In this document: in pieces, positions 12,254-39,180 of the stretch
How positions within the stretch are numbered: the stretch's first letter is position 1
How the letters are laid out: each line of letters begins with the position of its first letter
Source of the DNA: Bacteroidia bacterium
GTDB lineage: Bacteria; Bacteroidota; Bacteroidia; B-17B0; Aurantibacillaceae
Length of the DNA stretch: 64,000 nucleotides
Assembly: GCA_026003255.1 (NCBI GenBank)
Contig: BPGX01000001.1
Location: 372,001 to 436,000 of the forward strand
Reading direction: 5' to 3'
Program-made: the position numbers and the translations under genes
The notes under the pieces: model-generated
What the model was told of the DNA's origin: nothing
The model's database searches: none
What the model saw: only the letters and a program-made list of their open reading frames with translations

Positions 12254-12775
12254 ATGAAAAAATATTTTTTGATATACTTATCTTTGTTTATATGTGCAGA
12301 ACTATATTCTCAAGATACACAAATAAAAGAAGGTATTAATCCCGGATATAAAGCAATAGATATCGCATTGCCCAATCTTAATGATAGCATTGTGAAACTA
12401 AGCAGTTTAAAAGGATATTATGTTTTAGTTGACTTTTGGGCAAGCTGGTGTGCCCCATGTCGGATGAAAAATCCTCAAATAGTAGAAATTTACAATCAAT
12501 TTAAAAATGCAAAGTTTAAAGATGCAAAGGGATTTGTTATTTACAGTGTCTCATTAGACCATTCCAAAAAAGCATGGGAAAAAGCGATTATGATTGATAA
12601 TTTAAAATGGCCTTATCATGTCAGCGATTTGAAAGGGTGGAATTCCGCTGCCGCACTCACTTATCAAATTAATTCCATTCCCAATAATTTACTAATTGAC
12701 CCTAATGGAATAATTATTGGAAGATCTTTGAGTGAACAACAAATCATAAAGATACTTAATTCTAAAAAAGAATAA
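12254..12775 (+). CDS. TlpA-like periplasmic thioredoxin
   Basis: The 173-residue protein has a signal peptide (1-20, ending LYSQ) and a single TlpA/ResA-type thioredoxin fold. The active site is WASWCAPC (Cys66 and Cys69), and a cis-Pro motif SIPNNLLIDPNG follows. It should act as a reductant or thiol exchanger in the periplasm. It lies seven bases before an OmpA fusion protein whose own thioredoxin-like domain lacks the cysteines, so the two probably work together. Confidence 0.88.
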   Translation: MKKYFLIYLSLFICAELYSQDTQIKEGINPGYKAIDIALPNLNDSIVKLSSLKGYYVLVDFWASWCAPCRMKNPQIVEIYNQFKNAKFKDAKGFVIYSVSLDHSKKAWEKAIMIDNLKWPYHVSDLKGWNSAAALTYQINSIPNNLLIDPNGIIIGRSLSEQQIIKILNSKKE

Positions 12776-12781
12776 AATAAA

Positions 12782-13996
12782 ATGAAAAAACTTTTACTTC
12801 TTTTGTTATTTCCCTTTTGCATTTATGCCCAATTCCAGGAAGCCAAAACTCTGAAAGTGGGCGATAAAGCACCAACATTGGTTTTAATGGGTAGCGATAA
12901 TTCTATTCAATCCTTTAACTTTCCTTTGAATGATAAAGTTTACCTTATTCATTTTTGGTCATCCAGTTATTCAAAATCAAAAAAATTTTTACCTCGTTTG
13001 ATTAACTTATATCAACGTTATAATTCATTACCATATAGAAACATTGAGGGCTTTGATGTTATCACGGTTGCTGTTCAAAGTGATAAAATAGCATGGAAAC
13101 AAGATATTGAACAATATAATTTGACTGGTATAACCAATTTAATTGCACAAAGGGGCTTTAATGATGCTAACGTGAAAAACTGGGGTGTTTATGACTTACC
13201 TTCTACTTTTTTAGTAAATGAACAAGGTATTATTGTATTAGTAAATCCTACAATGTTACAAATAGAGCAATACTTAGATGAAGCCAGAAATTTTCCTCCT
13301 AACAGAAAAGATTTTAGGGCTAGATTGCTTATGACACCCAATATTTCCGATGGTGTACCGGGTCATAATGTTTATTTATTGAATATATTTGAAGACACTC
13401 TTCAAAAAACAAAAACCAATGATAGAGGTGTGTTTAATTTTAGTGAGGTAAAATTGCTGAATGATTTTATTTTTAGATTTGATACAACACAAAATCAATT
13501 TCGTTATCTCAAAGAAATCTATCTTGCAGACGCCAATGATGTTGTTTTACCTCCTATTGCTAAAAAATCCAATAATTTGTTTGACTATCAAGTAAGTGGT
13601 AAAGATGTGCAAAAGTTTTATGCTTCTGAAAGAAAAGCAAATGCTATACAGTTTGTTTCAAAAATTAAATTTAAACCAAACTCTTATGATATTGACCCTT
13701 CCTCATTAAAAGAATTAGATAAAATTGTGGATATTTTGAACAAACAACCCGATATGACTTTAGAAATACTTTGCCATACAGACAGTAAATTAGATGATGA
13801 CAAAAGTTTGAAACTCACTCAAGAGCAAGCCAATTCTATCAAAAACTATTTGGTTTCAAAGGGAATTGTTGCAGGTAGAATAACTGCTATCGGCATGGGT
13901 GAAAAAGAAATTTTGAACAAATGCAAAAATAAAATTCCCTGTACAGAGTCCGAACACGCAGAAAACAGAAGAACAGAATTTAAATTTTATCGCTGA
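12782..13996 (+). CDS. degenerate thioredoxin-fold protein fused to an OmpA domain
   Basis: The 404-residue protein has a signal peptide (1-17, ending YAQ). Residues about 20-170 form a TlpA-like thioredoxin fold in which the CxxC is replaced: HFWSSSYSKS has Tyr63 and Ser66 at the cysteine positions. The cis-Pro region DLPSTFLVNEQG is kept. A linker domain (about 180-285) follows, then an OmpA-like peptidoglycan-binding domain (about 290-404, with CHTDSKLDDD and NRRTEFK). The OmpA part contains NKCKNKIPC, two cysteines also present in the PorE-like protein at 5252-7930. I infer a peptidoglycan-anchored scaffold with a non-redox thioredoxin fold. Its 3' end overlaps the opposite gene by 10 bases. 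Confidence 0.8.
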   Translation: MKKLLLLLLFPFCIYAQFQEAKTLKVGDKAPTLVLMGSDNSIQSFNFPLNDKVYLIHFWSSSYSKSKKFLPRLINLYQRYNSLPYRNIEGFDVITVAVQSDKIAWKQDIEQYNLTGITNLIAQRGFNDANVKNWGVYDLPSTFLVNEQGIIVLVNPTMLQIEQYLDEARNFPPNRKDFRARLLMTPNISDGVPGHNVYLLNIFEDTLQKTKTNDRGVFNFSEVKLLNDFIFRFDTTQNQFRYLKEIYLADANDVVLPPIAKKSNNLFDYQVSGKDVQKFYASERKANAIQFVSKIKFKPNSYDIDPSSLKELDKIVDILNKQPDMTLEILCHTDSKLDDDKSLKLTQEQANSIKNYLVSKGIVAGRITAIGMGEKEILNKCKNKIPCTESEHAENRRTEFKFYR

Positions 13997-14988
13997 TTTT
14001 TTTCTTTTATCAAATAATTTCTTTGATTAAAGTTATATGTTAATCCTATAATCATTCTGCCTTTACTTTTCATTGCATCCATTGAAGTTTTCTCTTCATA
14101 TAATCTCCATTGCCCTGCAAATGATAATGCAATTTGTTTATAATTTATATCCAGCCCAACACCCGATAATAACACATTCATTTTAGTACCCAAAATATAA
14201 TTATTTTGAATATAAAGTCCCTTTGTATACTCGTAATAACTTTGCCAGGATGGAATAAATAACCAATCCTTCCATTTTATTTTGCATAGCGTCATCAAAT
14301 TCATCGTTAAGCTATTTGCAATTCTTTCATGATAATAATTTTCACCATTAATTTTATACATCGTATTCAACATTAAACCATATTTTTTATATCCGAGAAT
14401 ATAAGTATATCCTAACAAATAATCCACACTGCCTGTACCAGGTTGTAAAATCAAAGGAATTCTATTACCATATTGGTCTTTTGCGTAATAATTCCCGCTT
14501 GGCAATTTAATTCCTGATAATAAAATTAATCTATGTTGAAACTTTTCTTCATGAATTTTTTTTATGACATGATAGCCAAATAAAAATGTCGGATCGGACA
14601 ATCCAAAATGTTTTACTTTAATAGTATCTTCTCTCATTCGGCTATCTACAAATGGTAAAATGGCATTTAATTCTATCCTTGAATGTATAAACCATTTTAT
14701 TCTTAACTCATAAGTCTTGTAAGACTCAAAGTCAGAAGAAAGATACTTCTTTGTAGTATCCACGGCTTGATTATTAGAATGATTGCCATGCATTACACGA
14801 TAAGCACCTGAAGGAAAAAATATACCTCTTTGATGTTGAGCATAATATCCATTAAAAATTCGGTACCGATGAAAAAAGGCAATATTGCTTTGATTATCAT
14901 AAGGCAATATGCCCATAAAACAACCACAAATATCACAGGCATTTACAATATTATTTGTAAATAATAAAATCACAATAATCTTTTTCAT
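13987..14988 (-). CDS. outer-membrane beta-barrel protein with N-terminal CDICGC motif
   Basis: The 333-residue protein has a signal peptide (1-17) followed at once by CDICGC (Cys18, Cys21, Cys23), a likely metal or disulfide site on the mature N-terminus. The rest alternates polar and aromatic residues as in an outer-membrane barrel and ends in a loose aromatic strand. Similar proteins, often named only 'transporter', occur beside MbnP/MbnH-like genes in Bacteroidota, as I recall, and that is the context here. I infer a channel or copper-related surface protein. It is separated from the lipoprotein gene upstream by 239 bases without a clear terminator. Confidence 0.65.
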   Translation of the reverse strand: MKKIIVILLFTNNIVNACDICGCFMGILPYDNQSNIAFFHRYRIFNGYYAQHQRGIFFPSGAYRVMHGNHSNNQAVDTTKKYLSSDFESYKTYELRIKWFIHSRIELNAILPFVDSRMREDTIKVKHFGLSDPTFLFGYHVIKKIHEEKFQHRLILLSGIKLPSGNYYAKDQYGNRIPLILQPGTGSVDYLLGYTYILGYKKYGLMLNTMYKINGENYYHERIANSLTMNLMTLCKIKWKDWLFIPSWQSYYEYTKGLYIQNNYILGTKMNVLLSGVGLDINYKQIALSFAGQWRLYEEKTSMDAMKSKGRMIIGLTYNFNQRNYLIKEKNQR

Positions 14989-15227
14989 AAATCAATTTTT
15001 TATTGAAAGAAGTTCAAATCTTTTAAACCATGATTATTCATTAAACATTGCTCAAACATTTTGCATTCCTTTACTTCTGCTCCTTTAAGGTATTATTTGT
15101 TTTCATCAGTTTGAAAATTGTAAGAATAAAGAATAAGCACATCTTTACGAAAAAACTATGCTTCCAAAGCAATTTCTTTTGAATAATCTTAATTTCTAAT
15201 GCATAATTTATTTTTAATAATTAAAAA

Positions 15228-15605
15228 TTAATCTCCTTCTGTTACATATATGTCTAATTGCTTAACCTCATTATATCTCAAATAAACATGAGTGCCACCA
15301 GAAACAACATAAGGCGGAGGTATTGAATAATCATAACCAATAGCATACAAATAATAATCTCCTTTGTAAAATTTTATGCTATAATATGCATTCGCATCAG
15401 CAGAAATTTTTGCATCATAAACAGTTGTATCATTACCCGGAAAATCTTTTGCATTAAACTTAATGAAAACCCGCGCATAAGGAATATTTTTACCATGATG
15501 TTTGATATATCCTTTTACTTCTGCTTTCCCGCCTAATTGATTTTTCTTACAGGCAAATGCGATTAGTAGCAAAATGAATACAATAATATTATTGATTGGG
15601 GTCAT
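15228..15605 (-). CDS. small lipoprotein with transthyretin-like beta-sandwich
   Basis: From the ATG at 15605 the product is 125 residues; longer starts at 15620 or 15632 are possible but add only polar residues. A hydrophobic signal ends IAFACKK, a relaxed lipobox with the lipid Cys. The remainder (KAEVKGYIKHHGKNIPYARVFIK, then YYSIKFYKGDYYLYA) looks like a carboxypeptidase-regulatory or transthyretin-like sandwich. Starting at 15605 it overlaps the di-heme peroxidase gene by 17 bases, so it is translationally coupled to it. Its role in the copper island is unknown. Confidence 0.7.
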   Translation of the reverse strand: MTPINNIIVFILLLIAFACKKNQLGGKAEVKGYIKHHGKNIPYARVFIKFNAKDFPGNDTTVYDAKISADANAYYSIKFYKGDYYLYAIGYDYSIPPPYVVSGGTHVYLRYNEVKQLDIYVTEGD

Positions 15606-16623
15606 CAAATTTTTTATCATACAAAAACGCATAATCTGTGAGTGTATACAAAAAATTAATTAAATCTTGTTTTTCACTATCTGTAAGTGAAATGCCATTT
15701 TGTAATAAAGGGTCTAATGTTGAACTTTGAACAATACCCGATCTATAATGTTCTAATACCTGTTGCAATGTTTCAAATCTTCCATCGTGCATGTAAGGAG
15801 AAGTAACCGCAACATTTCTTAAAGATGGTACTTTAAACTTATTTCTATCATTTGGATCTCCGGTTATTCTCATTCTACCGCTATCCTGCAAAGCCGGATT
15901 AACGGACAAACCATTGTTTCTATAAGTAAAATCCGTAAACAAAGGTTCTGTATGACAGGCTGAACATTTTTGGACAAACAAATTATAACCTCTTTGTTCT
16001 GAAGCAGAAAATTGTGCCTTACCTTGCTTTACCATATCGTACTTACTCTGATAACTGTACATAGCGCCCATAAACTGAGCTAGAGCTTTTAATATTCTTT
16101 GAGAATTAATTGTTTCATCCCCAAACGCTTCTTTGAATAATTTCTTATAGAAATCTTTTTGTTGCAACTTTAAGACCACATTATCTAATGTTTCATCCAT
16201 CTCTACAGGATTAGTAATCGGAGCAATCGGTTGCACTTCTATATGGTTAATACCGCCATCCCACATAAAAGCCGGATGCCAATTCAAATTAAACAACGGT
16301 GGTGCATTTCTGTTCCCCAGTTTTCCATCAACTCCATGACTTAATGTATGTCCAGCATTGGCAAATGCCACAAAATGCTGATGACAGCTTCCACAGGATA
16401 CAGAATTATCACGAGACAAGGCGGTTTCATAAAACAAAGCACGTCCTAATACAAATCCCTCTTTTGTGAGTGGATTATTTTCAAAATTGTAACGTGGTTG
16501 AGGCCAGCCCGAAGGCACTACCACGCGGATATCATCCGATGGTAGTGCGGGCTTTATTTCCGGATCTACTTTGCAAGATGTTAGAATCACAAAAATACTC
16601 AATGTGGAAAGTAATAATCTCAT
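15589..16623 (-). CDS. MbnH/MauG-like di-heme cytochrome c enzyme
   Basis: The 344-residue lipoprotein (lipobox ending TSCK, Cys17) has two heme c sites, CGSCH (77-81) and CSACH (220-224), in the bacterial cytochrome c peroxidase/MauG fold. FMWDGG (Trp121) is the conserved tryptophan between the hemes, and FKVPSLRNV...YMHDG near residue 270-290 is the distal-heme segment. Family members are either H2O2 peroxidases or MauG-type enzymes that oxidise residues of a partner protein. The gene directly follows an MbnP-like gene (12 bases apart), the arrangement of MbnH, which converts a tryptophan of MbnP to kynurenine. I therefore favour an MbnH-like role over simple peroxidase. Confidence 0.85.
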   Translation of the reverse strand: MRLLLSTLSIFVILTSCKVDPEIKPALPSDDIRVVVPSGWPQPRYNFENNPLTKEGFVLGRALFYETALSRDNSVSCGSCHQHFVAFANAGHTLSHGVDGKLGNRNAPPLFNLNWHPAFMWDGGINHIEVQPIAPITNPVEMDETLDNVVLKLQQKDFYKKLFKEAFGDETINSQRILKALAQFMGAMYSYQSKYDMVKQGKAQFSASEQRGYNLFVQKCSACHTEPLFTDFTYRNNGLSVNPALQDSGRMRITGDPNDRNKFKVPSLRNVAVTSPYMHDGRFETLQQVLEHYRSGIVQSSTLDPLLQNGISLTDSEKQDLINFLYTLTDYAFLYDKKFDDPNQ

Positions 16624-16635
16624 TTCGGTTTAATA

Positions 16636-17436
16636 TTAATTGTGTATGTGTTCAACTGTTATCATGTCTGAATAATTGTCAGCAATCATTTTAGATTTAA
16701 CCCCCGGCATCACTATATTAAAATCATTTGCTAAATTAATTGTAGTAGGTGTCTTAAATATCTCACTTATATCGGTCTTAAAGTGTATTTCTGGAATTGT
16801 TGTACTAGTTACATTGGCCGTTGCTGAATTAAAAGACGGATTGACCCATTTTAATACAGAGGTTACACCTGAAAATCCCCCAATGTGATAAAAGAAATCC
16901 TTGGTAGTAGAACCAGATTGTGGAGATGTGCCTTCTAATTTTAACATGATGTATCCAGTAGTCCAGCTCCAAAACATTCCATTGGCCGGATCCAATGATC
17001 CTGTTTGAGCACCAGACACATTTCTTGCTGAATCAACACCTATAAGCATTTTTATACCTTTGTATTGTCCAACAGGAATATTATTCAAAGTAAACGAAGC
17101 TAAACTCCCCATAGCATTATGATTAACGAGAATATATGATTCAGGAACAATGTAAATGGAATTATCTGTTTTGGTTAATTGAATATTGCTAATATAGTAT
17201 TTGAATGTGGAAATTTTAATGGAATCACCATTGGAAGTGATATACCATTTGTTATGAAAAACTAACACACTATCCCCAAACATTGCTTCAAAACTCAAAA
17301 TTAATTTTCCTGTATTACTATTAGTGGTGCTTGAACTATTAGAATTAATTGGTTCTTTGGGATCTTTTTTACATGAATTAAATGCAAATAATACAATTAA
17401 AATTAAATTTAAATGTACTAAAATTTTTGTTTTCAT
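16636..17436 (-). CDS. MbnP-like copper-binding lipoprotein
   Basis: The 266-residue protein has a lipobox (FNSCKK, Cys22), a Ser/Asn-rich linker (28-45) and then the MbnP fold (about 43-266). Family hallmarks are FKYYISNIQL near 78-87, GVDSARNVSG (133-142), MFWSWTTGYIMLKLEG (Trp156, Trp158) and FYHIGG (His184). In characterised MbnP proteins a tryptophan is oxidised to kynurenine by MbnH and this is needed for copper binding. One of Trp156/Trp158 is the candidate here, by position only. It acts on the periplasmic side as a lipoprotein. The start ATG at 17436 fits the signal sequence. Confidence 0.85.
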   Translation of the reverse strand: MKTKILVHLNLILIVLFAFNSCKKDPKEPINSNSSSTTNSNTGKLILSFEAMFGDSVLVFHNKWYITSNGDSIKISTFKYYISNIQLTKTDNSIYIVPESYILVNHNAMGSLASFTLNNIPVGQYKGIKMLIGVDSARNVSGAQTGSLDPANGMFWSWTTGYIMLKLEGTSPQSGSTTKDFFYHIGGFSGVTSVLKWVNPSFNSATANVTSTTIPEIHFKTDISEIFKTPTTINLANDFNIVMPGVKSKMIADNYSDMITVEHIHN

Positions 17437-17537
17437 ATTTTTATTATTTAAAGTTAGTAGATTAAAGTTTTAAATGTATAAATTGAAATAATTATTACAT
17501 TTTATTACAAAAAAACTTTGGTAAAAAATTCGAGGAA

Positions 17538-17927
17538 TTAAACTAAAGTAGGAGGATGATATACTGTAAAACTAAACTGAAAAAAATACATATTCAATAT
17601 ATCTAATAAATATTCTCCAAAGACAATCAACTTATTTATATCAAACTCCCAATTATTAAAAAGATAATCGCTTTCAACAATATTCTTCAATGCATTCATT
17701 AAATTAAACTGACTTTTCTCTTCTAAATTAATTTTATTAAAGCTAACTTTTAAAAAACACTTTCCATGACATTGTAATTCTGGTTTTAGCTTATTTACAC
17801 AAAATTTTTCAGTAATCTCGTGTTGCTTTAAAAGATAATTTACTGTAACCAATGTCTTAAAACAGGGAATAGCTAAAATAATAACAATTAAAAATATCGC
17901 AGAACTTATTTTTATTAATTTTTCCAT
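17538..17927 (-). CDS. small Cys-containing membrane protein of the copper island
   Basis: The 129-residue protein has one N-terminal transmembrane helix (about 6-32, with Cys22) and then KFCVNKLKPELQCHGKCFLKV (Cys43, Cys53, Cys57). Cys-Val-Asn-Lys...Pro-Glu-Leu-x-Cys-x-Gly-Lys-Cys is a pattern I know from unnamed Bacteroidota proteins found near copper genes. Three close cysteines suggest soft-metal binding. The C-terminus ends with an aromatic and proline-rich stretch. It is the first gene after the cox1 terminator and 101 bases before the MbnP-like gene, so it probably starts the copper transcript. No function is proven. Confidence 0.65.
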   Translation of the reverse strand: MEKLIKISSAIFLIVIILAIPCFKTLVTVNYLLKQHEITEKFCVNKLKPELQCHGKCFLKVSFNKINLEEKSQFNLMNALKNIVESDYLFNNWEFDINKLIVFGEYLLDILNMYFFQFSFTVYHPPTLV

Positions 17928-17940
17928 CTATATTGAAAAT

Positions 17941-17968
17941 AAAAAAGGAATGCTTTTCGCATTCCTTT
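17941..17968 (-). terminator. Rho-independent terminator of cox1
   Basis: A perfect 10-bp stem (17944-17953 with 17959-17968, GGAATGC core) has a 5-base loop. On the minus strand it is followed by six T residues. It starts seven bases past the cox1 stop and separates the oxidase genes from the copper island. Confidence 0.88.
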
Positions 17969-17974
17969 AATTTA

Positions 17975-19798
17975 TTAATGATGTCCACCCCCATCCAATT
18001 CTCCTTCTTTCAGTGGAACAGTTTGTGGCACAAAATCTTCTTCATAACCAGGTTTACTGTAATCGTATGCCCAACGATGTACTACTGGCAATTCACCCGG
18101 CCAATTTCCATGGATATTTGCTACTGGATTTGTCCATTCTAAGCCATTAGCTTTCCATGGATTTTGTGGTGCTTTTGGACCTCTAAACATGCTATAAAAG
18201 AAGTTGAAGATAAAAACTCCTTGTGCTAATGCACCAACAATAGCGGAAATTGTAATAATTACATTGATATCATATAATGCATCAAACATTGGAAATTCGC
18301 TGTTGGTGTAGTATCTTCTTGGAACACCGGCTAATCCCAAAAAGTGCATTGGGAAAAATACGCCATAAGCACTAATAAAAGTTAACCAGAAATGAATGTA
18401 TCCTAACTTTTTGTTCATCATTCTTAAATACAGCTTTGGAAACCAATGATAAACACCTGCAAACATTCCAAATACTGCAGAAAGACCCATCACAATATGA
18501 AAGTGTCCTACTACAAAATAAGTATCATGAACTGTTATATCTAACGTACTATCAGCTAAAATAATGCCAGTAACACCGCCTGTAACGAATGAAGAAACTA
18601 AACCAATTGAAAATAAAGCTGCGGGAGTGTATTGAATATTGCCTTTCCATAATGTAGTCAAGTAGTTAAATGCTTTTACTGCTGAAGGAATAGCAATTAA
18701 CAAGGTTGTAAACACAAACACTGAACCCAAGAATGGATTCATTCCCGTTATATACATGTGATGTCCCCATACAATAAAAGATAAAAATGCAATGGCCAAC
18801 ATAGAACCTATCATCGCCCTATATCCAAAAATCGGCTTACGCGTAGCATTGGCAATAATTTCAGAAGTAATTCCAAGAGCAGGTAATAACACAATATACA
18901 CTTCAGGATGCCCTAAAAACCAAAATAAATGTTCAAAAAGAATAGGGCTACCACCACTATAATCTAATGGCCTACCACCAATGTAAATATCCGATAAATA
19001 AAAACTTGTACCTAACAATCTATCTGATAATAATAATAATGCACAGGATAACAAAACAGGAAATGATAATAATCCAATAATAGCAGTAATCAAAAATGCC
19101 CATACAGTAAGCGGTAAGCGGGTCATTTTCATACCCTTGGTTCTATAATTGATAATAGTTACAATATAATTTAATCCGCCCATCAAAGCAGAAGCAATAA
19201 ACAAAGCCATTGATACCAACCATAAATCCATTCCTAATCCAGAACCGGGCATAGCTTCCGGTAAGGCAGAAAGAGGCGGATAAATAGTCCATCCGGGAGC
19301 AGCTGCACCATCTGGGATAAATAGAGAAATAACCATTAGTAAAGATGATAAAAAGAAAAACCAATAAGAAAGCATGTTGATAAAAGGAGAGGCCATATCT
19401 CTCGCTCCAATCTGATATGGTATTAATAAATTAGAAAAAGTTCCTGATAAACCACCAGTCAGTAAGAAAAACACCATTATTGTTCCGTGCATTGTAACGA
19501 GAGCTAAATAAGCGTTAGGGTCTAATATACCATCTTTTCCCCATTTATCACCCATGACCCAGTTAATGAATGCAAACTTTTCACCAGGCCATGCCAATTG
19601 CAATCTGAAAACAATTGACATAATCATAGCAATTACCGCCATTACCATAGCAGTAATTAAATACTGCCGTGCAATCATTTTGTGATCCTGACTAAAAACA
19701 TATTTCGTAATAAAACTCTCTTCGTGTTCTTCGTACCGATGAATATCTATGTGTTCTTGCGCATGTAAATCTTGATTTAATACACTTATTGTTTCCAT
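17975..19798 (-). CDS. ctaD: cytochrome c oxidase subunit I
   Basis: The 607-residue protein has about 12 transmembrane helices and holds heme a, heme a3 and CuB. Visible motifs are TMHGTIMVF (heme ligand), WFLGHPEVYIVLLPALG (CuB His cross-linked to Tyr), WGHHMY (CuB histidines) and DTYFVVGHFHIVMG (heme ligands). The HPEVY Tyr marks an A-type heme-copper oxidase, which reduces O2 to water and pumps protons. It follows cox2 by 72 bases. Subunits III and IV and heme-O synthase lie 17 kb away at 36486-39180. Confidence 0.95.
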   Translation of the reverse strand: METISVLNQDLHAQEHIDIHRYEEHEESFITKYVFSQDHKMIARQYLITAMVMAVIAMIMSIVFRLQLAWPGEKFAFINWVMGDKWGKDGILDPNAYLALVTMHGTIMVFFLLTGGLSGTFSNLLIPYQIGARDMASPFINMLSYWFFFLSSLLMVISLFIPDGAAAPGWTIYPPLSALPEAMPGSGLGMDLWLVSMALFIASALMGGLNYIVTIINYRTKGMKMTRLPLTVWAFLITAIIGLLSFPVLLSCALLLLSDRLLGTSFYLSDIYIGGRPLDYSGGSPILFEHLFWFLGHPEVYIVLLPALGITSEIIANATRKPIFGYRAMIGSMLAIAFLSFIVWGHHMYITGMNPFLGSVFVFTTLLIAIPSAVKAFNYLTTLWKGNIQYTPAALFSIGLVSSFVTGGVTGIILADSTLDITVHDTYFVVGHFHIVMGLSAVFGMFAGVYHWFPKLYLRMMNKKLGYIHFWLTFISAYGVFFPMHFLGLAGVPRRYYTNSEFPMFDALYDINVIITISAIVGALAQGVFIFNFFYSMFRGPKAPQNPWKANGLEWTNPVANIHGNWPGELPVVHRWAYDYSKPGYEEDFVPQTVPLKEGELDGGGHH

Positions 19799-19870
19799 AA
19801 TGTTTATTTTTTGGTTAACAAATTTATTAGAGTTTATAACAAAAAAAACGTAACATCTGTTACTTATATT

Positions 19871-20902
19871 TTATTTGTTTGCTAAAGTTTTAAAAGATTT
19901 TTGTTGTCTTAACCATTCGTTAAATTCTTGCTCGGTTTCTACAACAATTTTCATTTGCATGTTGTAATGAGAAGCACCGCAAATCTTGTTACACAACAAT
20001 AAATAATCAAATTCAACTGGTTCCTTACCTTCTTTGGCTCTTCGTTCATTAATTTGTTTCATTAAATTCTGCACATAAGGATCCTGACGCATCTCTTTTG
20101 TTGTTTTTGTGGGTTTGAACTTAAAAGTAGTTACCATACCAGGTACACAATTCATCTGTGCTCTGAAATGCGGCATAAATGCAGAATGAATCACATCTCT
20201 GGATCTAAAATAAAAAACAACTTCTTTACCAACGGGAATATGAAATTCATTCTTCACTAATAAATCATCATACCCAGTTTTGTCTGTTGTATCTAATCCC
20301 ACTGGGTTACTTCCTTCAATATGTCTATAATCTGTGCTTCCCAATTTTCCATCTTTTCCAGGATAACGGGCAGTCCAGTCAAACTGTTTTGCGTATAACT
20401 CAACTACAACAGGATTTTTTTCTTCTGATGGTGCTGTAATTTCATTCCAATACTTTAAACCAAAGGTGATAATAAAGGCGAGAGCCGAAGCAGGAATAAT
20501 TGTCCATAACATTTCTAACTTACTATTATCCGAATAATAAATGGCTTTTCTGTTTTTATTACCTCTATATTTATATGCAAAATAAAACAACAAGGCATTT
20601 ACTACCACAAAAACAAACGAAATAAGTATCAAATTCCAGAATAACAAATCATCAATTGCTTTGCCATGTTCTGATGCAGCAGGTGGTAAGGACTTATCAT
20701 ACCATCTGTTTATTTGATAGAAAAACATAAACAGAAACACAACTCCAAATAATAACATCAACTTGCCCATTAAGTCGTTTTCTGAATCGGTTGGCTCCCA
20801 TTCTTTTGTCTTCCTCAACTCACGAGCAAATTCAATGACTTTTAATAATTGATGAACTGCAAGAATGAATAAGATAACCGCTAATACAACTAAAATTTTC
20901 AT
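19871..20902 (-). CDS. ctaC: cytochrome c oxidase subunit II
   Basis: The 343-residue protein has an extra N-terminal hydrophobic segment, two further membrane helices (about 45-62 and 88-110) plus a hydrophobic region near 130-150, and a periplasmic cupredoxin domain with the CuA site. Ligand regions are VIHSAFMPHF and LLCNKICGASHYNMQM, where the usual C-x-E-x-C is C-N-K-I-C; since this Glu acts through its backbone, copper binding need not be lost. Residue MNCVPGM is typical. CuA takes electrons from cytochrome c. No heme c motif is fused. A promoter with both boxes lies just upstream. Confidence 0.93.
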   Translation of the reverse strand: MKILVVLAVILFILAVHQLLKVIEFARELRKTKEWEPTDSENDLMGKLMLLFGVVFLFMFFYQINRWYDKSLPPAASEHGKAIDDLLFWNLILISFVFVVVNALLFYFAYKYRGNKNRKAIYYSDNSKLEMLWTIIPASALAFIITFGLKYWNEITAPSEEKNPVVVELYAKQFDWTARYPGKDGKLGSTDYRHIEGSNPVGLDTTDKTGYDDLLVKNEFHIPVGKEVVFYFRSRDVIHSAFMPHFRAQMNCVPGMVTTFKFKPTKTTKEMRQDPYVQNLMKQINERRAKEGKEPVEFDYLLLCNKICGASHYNMQMKIVVETEQEFNEWLRQQKSFKTLANK

Positions 20903-36485: not shown

Positions 36486-37364
36486 ATGAATGTATCAAAC
36501 GAGATAATAGTGTATTCTAAAAGTAAAGCATTCCTATTAATCACAAAATTTAGGTTATCGCTATTAGTAGTATTTTCGGCAGTGGTGAGTTATGTTACTA
36601 TTGCTGAAAATCCTAGGTGGGATGTTGTTTTGTATTTGTCTTTAGGAGGTTTTTTAATTACAGGGGCTTCCAATAGTTTTAATCAAATCATTGAAAAACG
36701 TTTAGATGCCTTGATGGATAGAACAAAGGAAAGGCCAATGCCATTAGAGATATTATCAAAGAGAGAAGCGTTCTTTTTTTCACTAATTTTAACGGTTATT
36801 GGGCTTTATTTTTTGTATTTGTGTTCTTTTCTTACAGCCCTAATTGGTTTGATTTCTTTGTTGCTTTATGTTTTAGTGTACACACCATTAAAACAAAAAA
36901 GTCCATGGGCTGTGTTTATAGGGGCATTTCCGGGAGCTTTGCCTACATTGATAGGAGCCGTTACAGGACAAAGTCAGCAAAATGCTATTGAGTTTTTTTC
37001 AACATTGTTATTTTTAATTCAATTTATCTGGCAATTTCCACACTTCTGGACGTTGGCGTGGTTTAATTATGACGACTATGCAAAAGCGGACTTTTATTTA
37101 TTACCGAGTAAGAAAAAAGATAAATTTTCTGCCTTTATGATTTTTTTATACACCATTTTTCTTATAGTGGCAGCTTTAATGCCTTATTTTTTCCACTTTA
37201 CAGGCATTTTGTCCACTATAATTATTGGGGTAGCTTCGTTTACATTGCTTATTCAGGTCTATTACTTTTACAAAATGCAATCGGATGAAATGTCAAAAAA
37301 ATTATTTAAAACATATATTATTTACCTGCCCGTAGTTCAATTAAGTATTATGACAAGATTATAA
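36486..37364 (+). CDS. ctaB: protoheme IX farnesyltransferase (heme O synthase)
   Basis: The 292-residue protein is a UbiA-type prenyltransferase with about eight membrane helices. The prenyl-diphosphate sites are NSFNQIIEKRLDALMDRTKERP (N-x-x-x-x-x-x-x-D-x-x-x-D) and NYDDYAKADFY near residue 195. The enzyme adds a farnesyl group to heme b to make heme O, the precursor of heme A in the oxidase. It is 10 bases before the first cox3 gene. Confidence 0.93.
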   Translation: MNVSNEIIVYSKSKAFLLITKFRLSLLVVFSAVVSYVTIAENPRWDVVLYLSLGGFLITGASNSFNQIIEKRLDALMDRTKERPMPLEILSKREAFFFSLILTVIGLYFLYLCSFLTALIGLISLLLYVLVYTPLKQKSPWAVFIGAFPGALPTLIGAVTGQSQQNAIEFFSTLLFLIQFIWQFPHFWTLAWFNYDDYAKADFYLLPSKKKDKFSAFMIFLYTIFLIVAALMPYFFHFTGILSTIIIGVASFTLLIQVYYFYKMQSDEMSKKLFKTYIIYLPVVQLSIMTRL

Positions 37365-37374
37365 ATTAAAATCT

Positions 37375-37941
37375 ATGAAAGAAGAATTACAATTAAAAAG
37401 ACGTGCGCAAAAAAACATTTTATGGTTAGGGATTTTTAGCATTATCATGCTTTTTTCAGGATTGGTAAGTGCTTATATTATTCGTTCTCAAGGTGGTAAT
37501 TGGTTGAAATTTCAACTACCTGATATTTTTTATTTTAGTACTGGTGTAATTTTAATGAGCAGTTTGACCATATATTTTGCACAAGTAAGCATTCAAAAAG
37601 ATAACAAAAAAAGAACTACAATTTTTTTAGTCACTTCACTCATTCTTGGCATCGTTTTTTCAATTAGTCAATTTTTTGCGTGGAAAGAATTATATCAAAA
37701 TGGCATTGTATATGCTGGAAAATACAGCAATCCTTCTGGCTCGTTTTTGTATTTATTAACTGCTTTACATCTGGTACATTTATTAGGAGGATTAATAGGT
37801 TTACTTATTACAACGATAAAAAATATTTTAGGGAGATATTCTTCTGAAAATTATATTGGAGTAGAACTGATCTCCATTTATTGGCATTTTTTGGATGCAC
37901 TATGGATTTTTTTATTTTTATTTTTAATATTTATTCATTAA
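37375..37941 (+). CDS. cytochrome c oxidase subunit III-like protein, short form
   Basis: The 188-residue protein has five membrane helices and family features such as LTALHLVHLLGGLIGLL and ELISIYWHFLDALWIFLFLF. The last motif is the usual end of subunit III. It is about 55 residues shorter than the next gene's product and lacks its middle loop. Two tandem subunit III genes are a known Bacteroidota arrangement. It sits between ctaB and the longer subunit III gene. Confidence 0.85.
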   Translation: MKEELQLKRRAQKNILWLGIFSIIMLFSGLVSAYIIRSQGGNWLKFQLPDIFYFSTGVILMSSLTIYFAQVSIQKDNKKRTTIFLVTSLILGIVFSISQFFAWKELYQNGIVYAGKYSNPSGSFLYLLTALHLVHLLGGLIGLLITTIKNILGRYSSENYIGVELISIYWHFLDALWIFLFLFLIFIH

Positions 37942-37965
37942 CATTGCCCGCAAAATTATATTCTT

Positions 37966-38697
37966 ATGGCTCACGCTCAGGCAACAGTAGTAGATGAAAA
38001 AGAATTGTGGAACGGTGGTGTATCCCCGTTTAATATCAGTTACGGAAAAATCATGATGTGGTTTTTTCTGGTATCCGATGCTTTGACGTTTGGAGGATTG
38101 TTGTGTGCTTATGGTTTTATGAGGCATCGTTTTGCAGATGTGTGGCCACATGCCGAACATGTTTTTGTACACTTTCCGTTTGTAAAGCAACATATTCCAC
38201 TTGCGTATGTGGGTTTAATGACCTTTATTTTAATCATGTCTTCTGTTACCATGGTATTGGCTGTAGAAGCGGGTCAAAGAAAAGATAGGAAAGGTGTAAC
38301 TATCTGGATGTTAGCAACTATTGCTGGTGGTTTAATGTTTTTAGGTTCTCAGGCATGGGAATGGTATAATTTTATTGTAGGAACAGAAGAAGGCGCATTA
38401 AGATGGGTTTGGAACGAAGAGCAACAAAAATATGTTCAGCAAATCATCCATGGGGCTAACATGACAGTCAATGAATATGGTATTCCTCAATTTGCTAATT
38501 TCTTTTTCTTTATTACTGGTTTTCATGGATTTCACGTGTTTAGTGGCGTTGTGTTGAATATCATAATTTTCATTCAGGTATTAAATGGCGTGATGGAAAA
38601 AAGAGGGCATTATGAAATGGTTGAAAAAGTTGGATTATACTGGCACTTTGTGGATTTAGTATGGGTGTTTGTATTTACATTTTTCTATCTACTTTAA
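37966..38697 (+). CDS. ctaE: cytochrome c oxidase subunit III, long form
   Basis: The 243-residue protein has about six membrane helices, a cytoplasmic insert around residues 135-160, and GFHGFHVFSGVVLNIIIFIQVL and YWHFVDLVWVFVFTFFYLL, which are characteristic of subunit III. It is a core membrane subunit that stabilises the oxidase during turnover. It lies 24 bases after the short subunit III gene and 42 bases before subunit IV. Confidence 0.92.
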   Translation: MAHAQATVVDEKELWNGGVSPFNISYGKIMMWFFLVSDALTFGGLLCAYGFMRHRFADVWPHAEHVFVHFPFVKQHIPLAYVGLMTFILIMSSVTMVLAVEAGQRKDRKGVTIWMLATIAGGLMFLGSQAWEWYNFIVGTEEGALRWVWNEEQQKYVQQIIHGANMTVNEYGIPQFANFFFFITGFHGFHVFSGVVLNIIIFIQVLNGVMEKRGHYEMVEKVGLYWHFVDLVWVFVFTFFYLL

Positions 38698-38739
38698 TTT
38701 TCAAAAAATATTTATCGCTAACCTAAAAAAATAAAAAAT

Positions 38740-39180
38740 ATGCACTTCCACGATAATTATCCTGAATACGAAAAAATGGCCATTCATGGCGAAGAAGAAG
38801 GAAAAAAAGCCAGAAGAGTATTATGGAATGTTTTCTGGCTAATGCTCATCGTAACCATTTTGGAACTCATTGTTGGTTTTATAGCACCTGAAAAAGGATG
38901 GACAGGCACATTAGGATTAAAAATTTTCTTCATTACATTTACTTTAGTAAAGGCGGGAGGCATTGTATTGTATTTTATGCACTTAAAACATGAAAGAACA
39001 TTTTTTAAATATACAATTCTTGTTCCCTATTCAGTATTCATTCTTTACACTGTTTTCATTTTAATTGTAGAAGGTAATTATTCCATGAATCCACAATATA
39101 GAAATAAAGTAGATAAAGTATATTTTGACCAACAGGAAAAATTAAAAGCGCATTCCAATCATGAAAATAGCGAGCATTAA
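38740..39180 (+). CDS. cytochrome c oxidase subunit IV family protein
   Basis: The 146-residue protein starts with a hydrophilic His-rich segment (MHFHDNYPEYEKMAIHGEEEG) and has three membrane helices (about 30-50, 60-85, 90-115). The second and third contain KAGGIVLYFMHLKHERTFF, the subunit IV (COX4/CyoD-like) motif. It is the last gene of the second oxidase block. The gap to the next gene lacks a clear terminator. Confidence 0.88.
   Translation: MHFHDNYPEYEKMAIHGEEEGKKARRVLWNVFWLMLIVTILELIVGFIAPEKGWTGTLGLKIFFITFTLVKAGGIVLYFMHLKHERTFFKYTILVPYSVFILYTVFILIVEGNYSMNPQYRNKVDKVYFDQQEKLKAHSNHENSEH

Follow-up and report, generated by a model that had tools for sequence, protein, structure and literature searches.

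A probable methanobactin-independent MbnP/MbnH copper module of Bacteroidota, headed by a candidate translational copper sensor

The closest described counterparts of the gene set reported here are MbnP and MbnH of methanobactin operons, i.e. those of Methylosinus trichosporium OB3b (PDB 7l6g and 6e1c; models TIGR04052 and TIGR04039; PMC3621798), with which the set shares the MbnP fold, a WxW motif, an adjacent MauG-type partner and a nearby outer-membrane transporter. The set is located in a 64,000-nucleotide stretch of DNA (the window; positions 372,001 to 436,000 of contig BPGX01000001.1, GenBank assembly GCA_026003255.1) of a Bacteroidia bacterium of the family Aurantibacillaceae in the order B-17B0, and comprises five open reading frames (ORFs), all on the minus strand, which in order of transcription encode a small cysteine-motif protein (Cys protein), MbnP, MbnH, a lipoprotein and a CDICGC protein. 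It differs from the Methylosinus system in that no methanobactin genes were found, MbnP identity is ~10-13%, and both proteins score below the curated cut-offs; moreover, a Cys upstream ORF stands at the head, a predicted 12-strand CDICGC channel replaces the MbnT-type TonB receptor, and a lipoprotein is added. We propose, with moderate confidence, that the locus is a Bacteroidota MbnP/MbnH (MbnPH) copper-acquisition module that works without methanobactin and has a translational copper sensor as its first gene.

CorA/CorB and MopE/SACCP of methanotrophs resemble the window pair in their Trp-derived kynurenine copper site and di-heme partner gene, but they belong to another sequence family than the window MbnP, and the methanotroph site consists of two His plus kynurenine (PMC3912023). 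For the upstream ORF, the closest described systems are two copper regulators. In CruR (DUF2946) of Bordetella pertussis, copper bound to the Cys pair of the nascent chain relieves arrest at RAPP, which leads to Rho-dependent termination, and MbnPH-like genes may be among those that follow CruR in its operons (PMC9426467). The CruR arrest has been demonstrated in vitro, and copper-linked RAPP/RGPP upstream ORFs were reported missing from Bacteroidota (PMC12992588). CutF, with CxxxC and a proline-rich end, promotes its downstream gene in Rhodobacter when copper is present; the CutF survey counted many Bacteroidota proteins by simple criteria, and MbnP is unmentioned in the text of that paper (PMC9973294).

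All five ORFs and their motifs were found where a first-pass annotation of the bare sequence had placed them; its observation was correct and its reading, a copper module supplying the adjacent oxidase, half right. Loci carry L numbers, and genome scaffolds are labelled G000:C plus a number. MbnP matched PF20243 with E=1.4e-52 (178.8 bits, gathering cut-off 27) and scored 43.5 bits with the NCBIfam equivalog TIGR04052, the cut-off of which (140) was not reached; by sequence it is a distant branch, outside the WxW equivalog as curated. When the AlphaFold model (pLDDT 90) was compared by Foldseek with 350,542 PDB chains, the best six matches were all chains of 7l6g, the Methylosinus MbnP (E from 1.9e-8 to ~1e-7), and the next match followed only at E=0.03. 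Sequence searches against PDB, both single and profile, gave no match, so that 7l6g was retrieved by the fold search alone, with 10-13% identity in the structural alignment. The MbnP assignment of the first-pass annotation was thus upheld by the PF20243 match and by a fold retrieving solely 7l6g.

The two Trp residues of the motif are conserved in the MbnP proteins of the order, W156 in 64/64 and W158 in 62/64. In Methylosinus MbnP, the first Trp of WxW reportedly becomes kynurenine (work of 2021), and the Cu(I) site is said to consist of His, Met and water with the kynurenine nearby. Met154 (61/64) and His184 (62/64, also invariant in alignment A1) are by conservation candidate copper ligands of the window protein. 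Several MbnP genes may occur in one cluster: tandem or triple copies were observed in L064:6056-10160, L200 and L172, as if several copper carriers shared one MbnH. At seven other loci (L114, L115, L121, L189, L195, L219, L230), MbnP precedes genes for a thioredoxin-like (AhpC-TSA) and a pseudouridine-synthase-like protein, with no MbnH nearby.

MbnH carries two CXXCH motifs and matched PF03150 (CCP_MauG) with E=3.9e-51; the top NCBIfam model was TIGR04039 with 238 bits (cut-off 362.85, not reached) against 185 for TTQ_mauG, and the best PDB match was 6e1c, i.e. MbnH. The heme-binding C77/C80/H81 and C220/C223/H224 were invariant in the MbnH alignment. At the axial-Met position, Tyr was present in 116 and Phe in five of the 121 MbnH-type rows, against Met in 4/4 peroxidases, which include the CcP of the same genome (L234). 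In a di-heme tree that did not contain MauG itself, the split between the peroxidases and the whole set of MbnH rows had 100/100 support. The tree position, which had been named beforehand as a test, together with the axial Tyr places the protein with the MbnH type, apart from classical H2O2 peroxidases. At the level of fold and family, the membership of MbnP and MbnH is firm as judged from models and sequence, but not at the curated-equivalog level, and the module as a whole stands far above chance because of the two Pfam matches (E=1.4e-52 and 4e-51) and a gene order repeated in dozens of genomes.

MbnP was present in 80/87 genomes of the order, and 75 of these 80 had a strong MbnH; of the remaining five, one lies at a contig end (L063), one has its MbnH gene split (L116), and the others carry a weaker, different MbnP. 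In 12 clusters the Cys gene, MbnP and channel gene were found with no adjacent MbnH, and since all 12 keep WxW and all 12 genomes encode MbnH elsewhere, the enzyme is probably able to act in trans; an unlinked MbnH as a sign of unmodified MbnP was rejected on the same grounds. A reading of MbnH as a common H2O2 peroxidase, with MbnP left unmodified, is very unlikely: the TIGR04039 and TIGR04052 scores, both under the curated thresholds, would suit it, but the axial-position Tyr, the tree, the near-universal pairing with MbnP, the conserved WxW, and the separate classical CcP encoded in the genome all speak against it.

The Trp expected between the hemes (residue 121 of MbnH, window 16261-16263) is kept in the window. 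Of 125 aligned di-heme proteins, 29, mostly from the same order, have His at this position, three have Tyr, and two have Ala or Phe; such replacements may alter inter-heme electron coupling. A second MbnP/MbnH pair is present in the genome (L101:7992-9790; G000:C2, ~514 kb), downstream of two MFS transporters of nitrate/nitrite type and upstream of genes of radical-SAM (MoaA-like) and molybdate-transport-like type, and its MbnP keeps the first Trp and has lost the second (WPM in place of WxW). YHYH-domain secreted proteins were observed beside the MbnP-MbnH pair in L100, L109, L112, L113, L116 and L231, and several loci of this type have two further genes, one sigma factor-like and the other small and heavy-metal-sensor-like.

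Among 120 unique MbnP loci with enough flanking sequence, the Cys and CDICGC genes were both present in 59, both missing from 54, and mismatched in seven (Fisher P=2e-25); the corresponding counts for the order alone were 20/1/0/28. These P values overstate independence because the loci are related by descent; the spread over different orders stands without them. The distribution shows joint inheritance of the Cys gene with that of the predicted outer-membrane channel, whereas the Cys gene occurred independently of MbnH (P=0.66). The lipoprotein gene was in turn found at 24 loci of the order with MbnH and at none without it (P=8e-7), and was absent from 40 neighbourhoods sampled elsewhere in the phylum. 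The order Cys-MbnP-MbnH-channel was repeated in Pedobacter, Dyadobacter, Hymenobacter, an Owenweeksia metagenome-assembled genome, and many others, i.e. the neighbourhood was conserved across Bacteroidota, with the Cys gene nearly always paired to the channel and, within the order, the lipoprotein to MbnH.

A probable role of the lipoprotein is to help MbnH or MbnP. Its overlap with the MbnH gene, given as 17 bases by the first-pass annotation, holds with the start at M10; with M5, which is nearly invariant in relatives and therefore favoured, the overlap is 32 nt, and with M1 44 nt. A TamB identity was dismissed (Pfam match E=0.11), and searches by sequence with the lipoprotein, the Cys family and the channel against PDB gave only noise. 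The CDICGC protein was modelled by AlphaFold as a 12-strand barrel (pLDDT 75, higher in the barrel part, with an N-terminal segment of low confidence), for which the best Foldseek matches were 4rl8, a COG4313 channel, and FapF (TMt ~0.7), and it is accordingly a predicted 12-strand outer-membrane channel. The predicted fold is thus shared with COG4313/FapF channels (PDB 4rl8, 5o65), while no significant sequence match to these was obtained and the N-terminal CDxCGC segment sets the CDICGC protein apart from them. Following the signal peptide, CDxCG was found in 70/81 and CxxC in 77/81 channel relatives, and we conjecture that the segment acts as a metal-binding gate. Two thioredoxin-like genes, one of them fused to OmpA, converge on the channel gene (window 12254-13996), and L079 has relatives of these two genes on the upstream side of MbnP. 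TlpA-like proteins help CuA assembly in other organisms.

The Cys protein returned no Pfam or NCBIfam family match; of the profile searches suggested beforehand, those on MbnP and MbnH gave their Pfam families, and that on the Cys protein gave none. The pattern C-x9-C-x3-C was present in 95 of 100 unique relatives, and in the 26 aligned relatives (alignment A2) all three Cys and the C-terminal Pro-Pro were invariant. Pro-Pro (PP) was located 1-9 residues from the stop in 100/100 relatives (3 aa from the end in the window), at a spacing of 62-73 residues from the last Cys in 100/100, and was preceded by a basic residue [HKR] in 84/100; as a control, 463 ORFs of comparable length were taken from these loci, and PP occurred within the last 15 aa in 16 of them. 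Elsewhere in the sequence conservation is poor (19-32% identity with the protein of the window), and a hydrophobic N-terminal stretch was seen by hydropathy in 93/100. The gap to MbnP is long, with a median of 138 nt (101 nt in the window) against 1 nt from MbnP to MbnH, and in only 5/100 cases was a module gene or another Cys gene located directly upstream on the same strand.

In this anatomy the likeness to CutF is strong: CxxxC and a hydrophobic N-terminal stretch, a putative export signal, are shared, and the window protein reaches the CutF-like thresholds of PMC9973294 with 129 aa (<150), PP in the last 15 aa, and a next gene on the same strand within less than 1,000 nt. The family may already be included, uncharacterised, in the CutF-like list of that paper. 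CutF itself precedes a multicopper oxidase, has a stem-loop over the next start, and a 45-aa spacing; no stem-loop was seen in the window. With CruR the Cys family has in common a small, putatively exported protein with a Cys metal motif, Pro-Pro ~3 aa from the end, the first position, a long gap, and copper operons in which MbnPH may occur. According to the estimate of the CutF authors, ~30 residues are held in the ribosome and 17 span the membrane (PMC9973294), and with a spacing of 62-73 the Cys motif would therefore be periplasmic when the PP codons are read.

Since the PP end, the spacing, the first position, the long gap and the low conservation match CruR/CutF, the Cys protein is by analogy probably a copper-sensing upstream regulator of this type rather than a copper carrier. 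A periplasmic Cu(I) carrier or membrane-anchored chaperone, passing copper from the channel to MbnP or the oxidase and having a structural Pro-Pro end, would account for the Cu-binding-like motif with its three invariant Cys and for a gene nearly always alongside the channel in MbnP loci. We consider it rather unlikely, as conservation is low outside the Cys motif and C-terminal tail, the constant Cys-PP spacing with PP at most 9 aa from the stop and the operon position suit a regulator, and the gene heads operons lacking MbnP or channel. These include YHS-SCO-SOD operons (L277, L293, L295), DUF2911-COX1 operons (L290, L294), and TonB receptor operons, in L287 with SCO and cytochrome c after the receptor; the Pedobacter clusters also run on into SCO and cytochrome c. 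Whether Bacteroidota have on this basis their own class of copper-sensing nascent-chain regulators, with the signature C-x9-C-x3-C...[ILV]-F-[HRK]-P-P-stop and no reliance on RAPP or DUF2946, serving as phylum-wide switches for operons of copper import and cuproenzyme assembly, MbnPH included, we regard as an even question.

For the module, the following course is proposed. The Cys protein would be exported during translation, with C-x9-C-x3-C emerging on the periplasmic side and the ribosome pausing at the C-terminal [FY]-[HKR]-Pro-Pro; copper bound to the Cys motif would change the pause and switch the downstream genes, which are expected to be active under copper shortage in the manner of CruR, a direction taken from the acquisition context. 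The channel would pass copper or copper chelates through the outer membrane, its Cys segment being a gate or filter. MbnH would oxidise Trp156 of MbnP to kynurenine by means of its two hemes, MbnP would then bind Cu(I), for which Met154 and His184 are the probable ligands, and the periplasmic copper pool would supply cuproenzymes, chiefly heme-copper oxidases. Acquisition or supply, the role also given by the first-pass annotation, is likely from context. A role in resistance or storage, with MbnP sequestering excess copper and the genes copper-induced, would follow the direction of CutF in Rhodobacter (PMC9973294), and one relative (L277) adjoins a heavy-metal-type P-type ATPase; this is unlikely, given that neighbours in the phylum are mostly genes of acquisition and cuproenzyme assembly (TonB receptors, SCO, cytochrome c, COX1), and that in methanotrophs copper represses CorA and MopE, the copper proteins with a kynurenine (PMC3912023).

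Several points weigh against a sensor-headed acquisition module. The Cys family differs from CruR in lacking a DUF2946 match, in C-x9-C-x3-C in place of CXXC, in a spacing of 62-73 rather than 45 residues, in FHPP in place of RAPP, the motif proven to stall, and in its occurrence in Bacteroidota. PF11162 (DUF2946) matched 0/26 family members and no DUF2946 was found in the genome, leaving homology unsupported as far as model scans go (no profile-profile comparison was made), and RAPP or RGPP was present in 0/100 relatives. The Cys-MbnP gap of the window contains no terminator or unusual folding (z=+1.3) by which a pause might switch MbnP, and the kynurenine chemistry is carried over from an MbnP of only 10-13% identity.

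Terminator-like hairpins were found in 11 of 69 gaps between the Cys gene and the next gene, with 2.3 expected; the window has none and the positions vary. An attenuator common to the family is not claimed for this reason, and as the strong folding of the Pedobacter gaps looks like repeated palindromes. Such palindromes (GTCATCCTGAATTT...AAATTCAGCATGACG) were observed in the Cys-mbnP gap of L185-L212, inserted in several Pedobacter species.

The genes cox1 (17975-19798) and cox2 (19871-20902) are located directly upstream of the module on the same strand, which had been taken to suggest supply of copper to the oxidase. A dedicated supply line to this cytochrome c oxidase, co-expressed with cox1/cox2, is a tentative possibility at best: the gap is only 47 nt, the arrangement recurs in two congeners, only one COX2 was found in the genome, and at other loci the Cys gene stands at the head of operons with COX1 or SCO. 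In a set of 60 further neighbourhoods from the order, cox2-cox1 was found beside the module only in the two congeners, i.e. within one genus. The gap itself contains a 10-pair stem, AAAGGAATGC-GAAAA-GCATTCCTTT, followed by TTTATTTT (T-run), a strong candidate for an intrinsic terminator, with a similar hairpin readable in congener L063, and two SCO genes (CuA assembly) are located elsewhere in the genome. Because of the genus-limited link, the terminator candidate and the distant SCO genes, a dedicated cox operon is not shown, and the place downstream of cox1/cox2 did not hold as a feature of the module, while a broader functional link of the module and the Cys family to oxidase assembly is likely. 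The oxidase genes are split, the remaining ones (CtaB-like, two subunit III-like and subunit IV-like) lying at window 36486-39180, ~16 kb from cox1/cox2.

The earlier suggestion that the module does without methanobactin was borne out in so far as MbnB was searched (MbnC was not): in the assembly, which is ~90% complete, only a weak relative was found, with 48.6 bits against a cut-off of 325 and on another contig. This DUF692-like gene (L308, G000:C2:206829-207449) may belong to another metallopeptide system.

Table 1. Positions of the module genes, their motifs and the adjacent oxidase genes in the window.
Feature	Position	Strand	Basis or remark
Cys protein, 129 aa	17538..17927	-	Upstream ORF, first in module; candidate nascent-chain regulator sensing copper
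C43-x9-C53-x3-C57 motif, putative copper site	17757..17801	-	Sequence; CxxxC as in CutF
Pro125-Pro126 codons, putative arrest site in YHPPTLV-stop	17550..17555	-	Invariant in relatives
MbnP, 266 aa, lipoprotein-like signal FNSCKKD	16636..17436	-	PF20243, AlphaFold, Foldseek
W156-S-W158 (WxW in FWSWTTGY), W156 expected kynurenine site	16963..16971	-	Conservation
His184, candidate copper ligand	16885..16887	-	Conservation
Met154, candidate copper ligand	16975-16977	-	Conservation
MbnH, MauG-type di-heme enzyme, 344 aa	15589..16623	-	TIGR04039, PDB 6e1c, tree
CGSCH, first heme site (C77, C80, H81)	16381..16395	-	Invariant
CSACH, second heme site (C220, C223, H224)	15952..15966	-	Invariant
Tyr293, at axial-Met position of classical di-heme peroxidases	15745..15747	-	Alignment
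Lipoprotein with invariant His45-His46, 134 aa, start probably M5 (15620)	15228..15632	-	Conserved family
CDICGC outer-membrane channel (predicted), 333 aa	13987..14988	-	AlphaFold barrel, Foldseek
CDICGC motif straight after signal peptide	14920..14937	-	Conservation
Intrinsic-terminator-like hairpin between cox1 and Cys gene	17944..17968	-	Stem and T-run
cox1 and cox2, probably separate transcription unit	17975..20902	-	PF00115 E=1.4e-139, PF00116 E=6e-7

MbnPH has been known mainly from methanobactin producers, and would here be a stable part of the copper economy of Bacteroidota, tied to a new family of predicted outer-membrane channels. The Cys family is a concrete candidate for translational copper sensing in a phylum from which copper-linked RAPP/RGPP arrest peptides were reported missing (PMC12992588), and its signature may be used to search for copper operons. 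The proposed module thereby offers a testable claim on how oxidases may be supplied with copper in a large phylum.

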